From: an uncultured Phycisphaerales bacterium
GTDB lineage: Bacteria; Planctomycetota; Phycisphaerae; Sedimentisphaerales; Anaerobacaceae
DNA length: 64,000 nucleotides
Direction: 5' to 3'
Assembly (NCBI GenBank): GCA_903857265.1
Contig: CAIODZ010000010.1
Coordinates: 62,001-126,000 of the forward strand
The notes under the pieces: generated by a model
The model's database searches: none
What the model was told of the DNA's origin: nothing
The model's input: the letters and a program-made list of their open reading frames with translations, nothing else
Made by a program: the position numbers and the translations under genes
Part shown: piece by piece, positions 28,267 to 32,829 of the stretch
Numbering within the stretch: the first letter of the stretch is position 1
Layout: each line of letters starts with the position of its first letter

Positions 28267-28295
28267 TTGACAACAGTATGGGGCGGCGCTATACT
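28267..28295 (+). promoter_or_regulatory. Strong predicted sigma-70 promoter with a long leader to the pseudopilin gene
   Basis: TTGACA (28267-28272), 17-bp spacer, TATACT (28290-28295) on the plus strand. The next plus-strand gene begins at 28644, so transcripts would carry a leader of about 340 nt. It is divergent from the promoter at 28208-28236. Confidence 0.7.
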
Positions 28296-28643
28296 GGATG
28301 GTGAAGTTAGGCAGGTACAAAAGTAGTGATTATATAATGTTGGCCGTAATTATAATGTACCCCCCGATATCATAACCTGCCTGTTAGAAGTGGTTTGGTA
28401 TTGCTTGACTCGAATTAGCGGCGTTTTTGAGTCAGCAAAACCAGCCAACAAGTCCTATAAAACCTGGTTTGAATGTGTTTTTTGCCGGCCGGTTCCGAGC
28501 GAAAAAGTTTAACAGAGATTCGCGAAGAATTCGGGCGATAATGTGTGGTTGAGAACAGATTGTAATAATCCGTCTTTTACCATGCCCGTTTGTGCTTAGG
28601 ACGGCCGGGTAGCGAATCTCAAAAAATGTATAGGAGAAAACAA
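28296..28643 (+). other. Long untranslated leader of the pseudopilin gene
   Basis: No open frame with a ribosome-binding site is present. Inverted repeats include GGCAGGT (28310-28316) with ACCTGCC (28375-28381), and TGACTC with GAGTCA about 25 nt later in the middle part. The last third contains a 106-nt segment closed by a 9-bp perfect stem (28515-28620). AGGAG at 28632-28636 serves the pseudopilin start. Confidence 0.55.
28515..28620 (+). ncRNA. Candidate structured leader RNA (possible riboswitch or cis-regulator)
   Basis: GAGATTCGC (28515-28523) pairs perfectly with GCGAATCTC (28612-28620), closing an 88-nt interior. Inside, CCGTC (28570-28574) can pair with GACGG (28600-28604), and CGGGC (28532-28536) with GCCCG (28584-28588) in that hairpin's loop, which would make a pseudoknot. 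It ends 23 nt before the pseudopilin start codon. I do not see the conserved cores of c-di-GMP-I or other riboswitches that I know. Confidence 0.4.
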
Positions 28644-29714
28644 ATGAGAAAGAAAGGTTTTACGTTGGTTGAGTTGCTGGTCGTTATCGCGATCATCGCT
28701 CTGCTGATGGGTATCCTGATGCCGGCTCTGGCCAGGGTCAGGATGATTGCCTACCGTATGGTCTGCGGGTCAAACCTGTCAGGCATAGGCAAGGCGCTTT
28801 TGCTGTATGCCGGTGATTCACAGGAGTCATATCCAATGCCCGGCTTTAAGGCAGGGCCGATAGTTTACGCCCTGAGTGGAGAAATTGGCACTAACCCTGG
28901 TTATTTCGACGGCTACGGCGGCGGTGCTACTGCACTAGCACTCACAGATATCTTCAGTGGCTTTACTAATGGCCAGGCAACTATGGGCTCATTGTTCTAT
29001 ATGCTCGTAAAATACCAGGATGTCTCACCAAAACAGTTTATCTGCAAGGGCGACTCCGGCTCAGAAGTTTTCAAGATCACGAGTTACTCCTCATCAACAG
29101 TAACAGACCTGACCAAGATTTATGATTTTGGCAACAGGCCGGGCAAACACGTTAGTTATGCTTACCATTTCCCCTTTGCCAAGGACAGAGTTGCCAATGC
29201 AGCAGCAGGGTTCCCGATTTCAGTTAGCAGCGCGCCAAGCAGCCCCCTCGCGGCGGATAGAAACCCGGGCCTGGATAAAAACGCCTCTACTTATATAAAG
29301 GGCGGAGATGCTACCGGGACTTTGGTGGTGCCGGCTACACCAGATAATTCACCTTGTAAAAAATGGAGCGATAACAGTTGTCAGTACTCGGACAAAGATT
29401 TCGTGTATAACGCCTATGCCCATCAGCGCGAAGGCCAAAACGTCCTGTACAATGACGGCCACGTGAAATTTGAGTCACAAGCCAACGTGGGCATAAATAA
29501 CGACAACATCTATCAAAGATGGGGGTCTGGAGCTAATGCCGCCCCCGCAACAGTAACAGTGCCGGATAAGATGGGCTTGGAAGCATGCGGGCGACTCCCG
29601 AGCATGACTACTACAGGTAGTACTTGGAAGCCAGCCAGTTACTACGACCTCGTGCCGTGGGATGTGACGGATGCACTTTTGATTAATGACGTCCTTGACA
29701 ACGGCGGCTATTAG
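28644..29714 (+). CDS. Prepilin-type (pseudopilin, DUF1559-like) secreted protein
   Basis: The ATG at 28644 follows AGGAG and gives the class III signal [18 protein letters not shown], cut by prepilin peptidase after the Gly with the new Phe methylated. The hydrophobic helix is followed by a globular domain with the C-terminal H-x(9,10)-DG pattern ([17 protein letters not shown]), characteristic of the large planctomycete family of type II-like pseudopilins. The 356-aa product is probably assembled into a pilus or secretion filament at the inner membrane. It has its own long leader and a strong terminator, so it is a single-gene unit. Confidence 0.9.
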
Positions 29715-31898: not shown

Positions 31899-31940
31899 CG
31901 GATTTTACGATTTAACGTTTTCTACGCAAGGCGAGGCCGC
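31899..31940. repeat. 42-bp perfect direct repeat, copy A (3' end of PEP-CTERM gene)
   Basis: The 42 bases are identical to 33064-33105. They cover the last codons of the PEP-CTERM tail, the stop codon and 13 bases beyond it. Confidence 0.9.
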
Positions 31941-32829
31941 CGAAGGTTAATAGTAAAAGCGTTGCGGGTTCGGGAACGACGGAGGCGACACGGAACCCTA
32001 TATCGTCGCCCTCGCTATTCGGGTTGTGGTATTCCAGCCAGAACGAACTGCAGTCGTAGTCGAATCCGTAGTACGAGCCACCACGCATGCCGAAATCGGA
32101 ACCGTATAGAGTCTCGTTCCATTCAAAGACATTGCCCATCATATCAAAAGTGCCGTTCTGTTCCTGTTCGCCGCTGCCTATATTCCACGGCTGGCCATTA
32201 TAGTAGTGATGAAATGAATAATAATTCGTTTGCGCGCCGGCAACAGGGGCAATATCTGTGCCGTTGGCATAGAACGAATAGCCGGAGCCATCGGGCTTGA
32301 AATAAGCTGCCTTGTACCATTCATCTTCGGTTGGGATTACGTAGGTTGTTCCATAAGCCGAAATTGATGAAGCCCTGTCGATTCCCAGAAAACTACCGGG
32401 ATTGGTCTTATTCCCGCTGAACTGATATGCACCCTTGCTCTTGTCGCCGCTGGTCAGGTAATTACAGAACTGGGCCGCTTCATACCAGCTTACCATATTG
32501 GTCGGCTGCTGAGCGCCGGTCCAATGTGAACTATAGCCATAACCATCGTTCGTGCCTGTGGGAGCACCGGCGACAGTTATAAAGGCATTCCACTGAGCAT
32601 TGGTTACCTCGTATTTGCCGATACGGTAATTATAACTAACTGCACCACAACCGTACGGATTTGCTAAAAGACGCCCAAACGCGTCTGTTCCGGTTCTTGT
32701 ATCCCCGGCATTACCGGCGTTGCCGATAGGTACGAAATCAATGCTAATTCCTCGTATGGTGTCAGCCGAAGCAAAATTAGCTACAGCCATCACACACGCA
32801 ATAATTGCTAAAACTCTTATATTTTTCAT
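31912..32829 (-). CDS. SUMF1/formylglycine-generating-enzyme-like PEP-CTERM protein
   Basis: The 305-aa product has a signal peptide (VLAIIACVMAVANFASA), a sulfatase-modifying-factor fold and a C-terminal PEP-CTERM sorting tail (VPEPATLLLLTFGGLALRRKR without the first residue being essential). SUMF1-type motifs are visible: YRIGKYEVTNAQWNAF, PTNMVSWYEAAQFCNYL, IPTEDEWYKAAYF, DMMGNVFEWNE and GIGFRVA-like DDIGFRVA. The active-site Cys pair of true formylglycine-generating enzymes is not evident, so a structural or binding role on the cell surface is more likely than sulfatase activation. PEP-CTERM proteins are anchored or released by exosortase at the envelope. It is the third of three adjacent PEP-CTERM genes on this strand. 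Confidence 0.88.
   Translation of the reverse strand: MKNIRVLAIIACVMAVANFASADTIRGISIDFVPIGNAGNAGDTRTGTDAFGRLLANPYGCGAVSYNYRIGKYEVTNAQWNAFITVAGAPTGTNDGYGYSSHWTGAQQPTNMVSWYEAAQFCNYLTSGDKSKGAYQFSGNKTNPGSFLGIDRASSISAYGTTYVIPTEDEWYKAAYFKPDGSGYSFYANGTDIAPVAGAQTNYYSFHHYYNGQPWNIGSGEQEQNGTFDMMGNVFEWNETLYGSDFGMRGGSYYGFDYDCSSFWLEYHNPNSEGDDIGFRVASVVPEPATLLLLTFGGLALRRKR

Follow-up and report, generated by a model that had tools for sequence, protein, structure and literature searches.

A conserved pseudoknot leader RNA preceding a pseudopilin gene in the Planctomycete order Sedimentisphaerales

The class II c-di-GMP riboswitch upstream of pilA1 in Clostridioides difficile contains a pseudoknot, and the ompA leader of Escherichia coli forms a 5'-terminal stabilizing stem-loop on the abundant mRNA of an exported protein. 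PMC6366702 names pilin and surface-protein genes as targets of c-di-GMP riboswitches, including those situated before pilA. For the Planctomycetes, a table row in PMC2864571 gives Rhodopirellula-1 as a candidate structured RNA obtained by comparative genomics. In a search of mostly open-access literature, including PMC6366702, PMC8835794, and PMC2864571, no Planctomycete leader of the type presented here was found to be described.

The prepilin-like genes of Planctomycetes number in the dozens per genome, and their role is unclear; the genome studied here (2.8 Mb in 70 contigs) has 34 N_methyl reading frames. One of these genes is preceded by a conserved element that spans positions 28304–28643 of the window, that is, of the whole 64,000-nt stretch analyzed. 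Comparative sequence data indicate that this leader truly folds as RNA and that the fold has been conserved in evolution; it consists of a 5'-terminal module, domain 1 (D1), and a pseudoknot domain adjoining the ribosome-binding site, domain 2 (D2). The earlier note had proposed a possible new structured leader at 28515–28620. That interval is indeed structured, and its proposal is borne out by orthologous pseudopilin genes, near-fixed spacing, covariation, and the absence of an Rfam match; the conserved element is nevertheless larger than the interval proposed.

Promoter, pseudopilin gene, and extent of the leader

A sigma-70-type promoter was found on the forward strand at 28267–28295, with TTGACA (28267–28272) and TATACT (28290–28295) separated by a 17-nt spacer. 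On the basis of this arrangement, transcription is predicted to start at about 28303, 341 nt upstream of the ATG at 28644, which gives a leader of about 340 nt and agrees with the distance at which a consensus promoter had been noted before. The Shine–Dalgarno (SD) sequence AGGAGA (28632–28637) is unpaired in the predicted fold. The gene that follows (28644–29714, forward strand) encodes a pseudopilin of 356 amino acids with the prepilin N-terminal methylation motif (PF07963, 33.6 bits); TIGR02532 exceeded its cut-off, and the GspG model TIGR01710 matched below its own. The upstream neighbor, a UDPGP-family gene (PF01704), is divergent, and the downstream neighbor, a gene with DUF4139, is convergent; therefore, the pilin gene appears to be monocistronic. 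The best explanation of this arrangement is that 28304–28643 would be the 5' part of a monocistronic pseudopilin mRNA and would act in cis. Of three named relatives, two are the Sedimentisphaerales MAG JAFGDN010000047.1 and the Phycisphaerales MAG PLLM01000009.1. At a relative's D1 leader (L175), a UDPGP-like gene, recognized by eye, is likewise divergent, and a run of N follows the leader.

Structure, covariation, and distribution of the pseudoknot domain

Domain 2 occupies 28484–28625 and was detected in the window with 88.1 bits (E 6.5e-23) by covariance model R1, whose training set includes this copy. The helix P1 is formed by GAGATTCGC (28515–28523) and GCGAATCTC (28612–28620); as the earlier note had reported, it is a perfect stem of 9 bp ending 23 nt before the start codon. 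The possible pseudoknot mentioned in the same note proved to be real and covarying, but the partner strand lies upstream of the interval given there, outside P1, at 28485–28501 (CCGGCCG..TCCGAGCG). This strand forms 15 pairs with TGCTTAGGACGGCCGG at 28593–28608 (−23.9 kcal/mol), and the corresponding helix has 14–16 bp among the leaders. The strand order a-b-a'-b' is that of a true pseudoknot, in which a' and b' are linked by a median of 4 nt, loop 1 (28502–28514) is A-rich (50% A over the A3 rows), and loop 2 is long (median 76 nt). Loop 2 contains a conserved unpaired motif at 28562–28570 (consensus GCAUUUAUC; GUAAUAAUC in the window), in which the columns of the G, the A, and the U in the center are 92–100% conserved. 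An inner hairpin, proposed previously, was unsupported, since alifold on 86 aligned loops gave no consensus pair and thus no conserved helix inside the loop.

Ordinary folding of the 141-nt stretch was by itself unimpressive (z −2.24; 5 of 200 shuffles as good). A search for a stem combined with a pseudoknot gave −44.6 for the window leader, a score reached by none of 400 dinucleotide shuffles (best −37.0); together with the compensatory changes observed in relatives in both helices, this excludes chance. When 40 leaders were searched automatically, 35 had a P1-like stem accompanied by a duplex of −14 kcal/mol or lower, the remaining five being L002, L027, L040, L043, and L048. An initial alignment omitted L002, L019, and L027. 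For alignment A1, 23 leaders were hand-picked from the 40 searched; long-insert and distant leaders were excluded. In these 23 leaders, 87.8% of 564 cells paired, compared with 27–51% when the partners were slid, and both-side changes were found in 13 of 25 pairs; neither the pairing percentage nor the covariation score was matched in 500 shuffles. R1, which has the long helix as its sole paired element, aligned 101 matches with both-side changes in all 16 modeled pairs, the alignment being fitted to that helix. The test of P1 is less biased, because R1 did not model P1 as pairs: over 100 distinct rows, 98.5% of the cells were paired, 6 of the 9 pairs showed both-side changes (in 18 cells), and none of 500 shuffles was as good. 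Kinship of the sequences inflates shuffle tests of this kind; the slid-partner controls agree with them in direction. The comparison of leaders suggested earlier showed that both helices covary across the 23 hand-picked as well as the approximately 100 model-found leaders. Among the forms of P1 seen in extracted leaders are GAAATTTGC/GCAAATTTC and GAGGTTTGC/GCAAACCTC.

In a DNA search of 61 genomes, matches from other genera began at query positions 93–113, which lie in the leader's 3' arm, and extended into the gene. Of the 161 genomes that represent the order (Sedimentisphaerales according to the named relatives), 73 contained D2 by R1, as did 31 of the 66 good ones. There are one to three copies per genome, mostly one or two, and a single copy in the source genome. 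In a class-wide search with R1, matches were obtained in 43 of 397 genomes, 40 of which belong to the same order; the three weak matches from other orders of the class (E 6.6e-4 to 7.6e-3, 45–70 nt) were judged to be due to chance. Leaders of more distant families of the order (L035–L039, L044, and L045) keep both helices with other sequences, for example GAAGCCCGC/GCGGGTTTC in L038; given these leaders, R1 underestimates the true spread of D2.

The association with one kind of gene is close. A pseudopilin gene lies downstream of 96 of the 98 distinct D2 matches, a set obtained from the 101 matches by removing a second match in L078, a cut match in L061, and L143, whose 3' end is cut. The 96 calls comprise 91 made by pattern, two with FTLVE after the cysteine, and three at contig ends with a visible start. 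The two exceptions are L110, where no pilin start was seen and the 3' end of the model was unmatched, and L147, a 24-bit match followed by another reading frame. The spacing noted for the window also recurs: among 94 relatives, 76 have the 3' end of P1 22–25 nt upstream of the ATG. One value in this set of distances (−1372) is an artefact of a locus that has two matches. Present family-wide and in single copy, the leader RNA marks one prepilin-like gene as special and offers a handle on the control of pili and secreted proteins.

The 5'-terminal domain and the genes behind it

Domain 1 (28304–28385) has a closing helix, formed by AGGCAGGT (28309–28316) and ACCTGCCT (28375–28382); the A/U-rich loop that it encloses contains three AUCAUA-like motifs. 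The domain is joined to D2 by a variable linker (28386–28483; median 112 nt, range 76–206 in 94 relatives). Model R2, whose training set includes the window copy, gave 57.1 bits for this domain. Model R3, built from loci with D1 only and trained without the window copy, also found it (36.7 bits, E 1.7e-6), so that recognition of D1 in the window is independent of its own inclusion in training. At E ≤ 0.01, R3 detected D1 in 95 of the 161 genomes of the order, and R2 in 39 of the 397 genomes of the class, all within this order. D1 was present within 320 nt upstream of D2 in 94 of the 98 D2 loci and was tandem in 21 of them. At L018 and others (e.g., L050, L087, and L098), it occurs twice, rarely three times, per locus, like tandem aptamers. 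Thirty weak antisense matches were removed by hand from the D1 counts and from the promoter-position and covariation analyses.

Relatives have a comparable promoter at a near-fixed distance upstream of D1, with an exact TTGACA in 76 of 136 and 17-nt spacing in 94 of 136; the best promoter score upstream of D1 averaged 9.56, compared with 7.95 in shuffles. The −10 box mostly begins 13–16 nt before the start of the D1 model, which makes D1 the first element of the transcript. The position of D1, mostly just downstream of the promoter, its A/U-rich repeated motifs, and its inverted repeat, which yields the weak antisense matches, could also be read as signs of a DNA operator beside the promoter rather than an RNA structure. 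Covariation of the helix argues against this. In 16 leaders, 88.1% of the cells were paired, and covariation was modest, 3 of 10 pairs having changed on both sides, a count reached by 92 of 500 shuffles. In 41 D1-only loci, 87.0% were paired, compared with 26–59% when the partners were slid by 1–3 columns, and both-side changes occurred in 6 of 10 pairs (5 of 500 shuffles). Compensatory changes thus preserve pairing over about 65 nt, pair 9-79 being paired in 95%; D2 lies outside the scope of an operator altogether, and we regard the operator reading as quite improbable. Pairwise covariation among 117 equal-length rows of 158 distinct ones gave no internal D1 helices.

D1 without D2 precedes other genes, a reading frame being present within 450 nt at 38 of 41 loci. 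All 38 testable genes of this group encode a hydrophobic N-terminal segment, and six of them are pilins. Since the base rate by the same lenient rule is 19 of 35 in the window and there are paralogues among the loci, this is a strong trend and not proof. The second D1 of the source genome (L150:1501-1581, contig C22) is followed after 218 nt by a gene whose product is not a pilin but an exported beta-helix protein (PF13229). Among the D1-only loci of relatives (L151–L190), exported beta-helix, RCC1-like (GEIVAWG, by eye), and PEP-CTERM-like proteins are encoded behind D1; by eye, the SD sequence in many of these leaders closely follows a UAUUUAUCAU stretch, which in turn has a GC-rich hairpin upstream. 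The window gene at 31912–32829 (reverse strand) is similar by eye to a gene located behind D1 in a sister genome (L190); a search of the window found no D1 before it.

These observations suggest a regulon of exported proteins at the RNA level. One form of it would be post-transcriptional: a small RNA or RNA-binding protein would land on the leader by recognizing UAUCAU-type motifs, of which D1 offers three and the vicinity of the SD sequence another. Consistent with this, the three D1 loop motifs are conserved, a related motif occurs in loop 2 of D2, and a further UAUCAU/AUUUAUC-type motif, mostly about 26–42 nt before the ATG, is found in 16 of 31 non-pilin D1-only leaders, compared with 5% in shuffles. 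These 31 leaders, however, include close paralogues and are not independent, and the motifs are A/U-rich; we consider a landing site rather unlikely.

Putative mode of action and relation to known systems

We favor an effect of the leader on translation or message stability, through which it probably controls the amount of a surface-filament protein made by these Planctomycetes. On balance, we lean toward a mechanism in which D1 is a portable module and the closure of P1 beside the ribosome site sets the translation or lifetime of the pilin mRNA. During RNA synthesis, the long helix would form first, once a' has been transcribed, whereas P1 would close last, just when the ribosome-binding site emerges. 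The closed pseudoknot would then border the 30S footprint on its upstream side, where it could keep the A-rich SD region open and block nucleases or alternative pairings. A factor favoring or disfavoring closure, via the GCAUUUAUC loop motif or D1, may then determine translation or lifetime; the loop motifs could be the point of action of a trans-acting protein, small RNA, or ligand. D1 itself would be a portable 5'-end module that is also carried by mRNAs of other exported proteins, and therefore probably exerts shared control over a set of surface and secretome genes. Covariation of both helices, the near-fixed distance between P1 and the ATG, the promoter directly before D1, and the presence of D1 at 94 of 98 D2 loci are consistent with this mechanism. 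Against it, the SD sequence is open in the modeled state, no switching step is apparent, and the loop motif is more constrained in sequence than a purely mechanical block needs.

Sequestration of the SD sequence by P1 was considered and, on inspection by eye, rejected: the 3' strand can pair with only about four SD bases, and P1 variants do not track the SD sequence. A possible hairpin at the end of the linker, before the pseudoknot, could compete for the 5' strand of the latter; it is below −6 kcal/mol in 50% of 101 leaders and in 30% of shuffles, a weak difference.

It is also possible, if somewhat unlikely, that the leader is passive, stabilizing an abundant mRNA and keeping the ribosome site open without sensing. 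Such a role would suit the strong consensus promoter and the fact that structured elements immediately follow the 5' end and immediately precede the ribosome site, but the conservation of the unpaired motifs exceeds the needs of a structural block. This conservation, which concerns D1 as well as loop 2 of D2, would fit a riboswitch whose ligand might be a second messenger, with D1 (often tandem) or D2 as the aptamer and pili and exported proteins under its control. Tandem D1 at 21 of the 98 D2 loci and the established targeting of pilin and surface-protein genes by c-di-GMP riboswitches (PMC6366702) are in line with this, and c-di-GMP signaling is possible in the source organism, whose genome contains GGDEF domains (4 of 5 matches over the cut-off). 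On the other hand, the expected expression platform is not evident, since the SD sequence is unsequestered in the modeled fold and no U-run was seen by eye downstream of P1; moreover, there is no Rfam riboswitch match, a D1 without internal helices is unusual for an aptamer, and D2 is bound to a single kind of gene. A riboswitch appears unlikely.

A broader proposal, which we advance only as speculation and hold to be rather doubtful as a whole, would combine these elements. D1 may be the signal-sensing module, whether aptamer or regulator landing site, of a previously unknown RNA-level regulon of exported proteins across this Planctomycete order; D2 may be a new pseudoknot platform through which the state of D1 governs how well the main pseudopilin mRNA is translated or how long it lasts; and tandem D1 might permit graded or cooperative control.

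Neither domain matches Rfam 15. The search proposed in the earlier note returned only two tRNAs in the window at the gathering score, with no known family in the leader, and nothing in 20 related loci. At E ≤ 10, the window leader gave only a sub-threshold match of the SD region to freshwater-2 (RF02980, Cis-reg). This candidate was rejected, as the match (17.4 bits; gathering score 49.9) covers only 28618–28646, the SD sequence and start codon, and not the structure; the likeness is thus between the 3' end of freshwater-2 and the SD and start region of the pilin leader. c-di-GMP-I (RF01051) was found neither in the window at the gathering score, nor in the leader at E ≤ 10, nor in the 20 related loci; a search of four genomes of the genus likewise gave no match, and its control gave no signal either.

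Comparison with the systems introduced above places the leader as follows. Like the c-di-GMP riboswitches of class I (RF01051) and class II, it precedes a major pilin or surface-protein gene; unlike them, it has other helices and other conserved motifs, no terminator was found, and Rfam gives no match. With Rhodopirellula-1, a table entry in PMC2864571, it shares the derivation from comparative genomics and the listing for Planctomycetes. D1 resembles the ompA leader in that the mRNA begins with a hairpin, and differs from it in its conserved loop motifs, tandem copies, and family-wide gene set, the pseudoknot of D2 being an extra element. The leader belongs to none of the families tested. As is general for leader RNAs, the structure is conserved with compensatory changes and holds a fixed sense position before one kind of gene. 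In our best reading of these sequence comparisons, D1 and D2 together would represent a new class of cis-acting leader RNA for the translation or stability of pilin mRNA.
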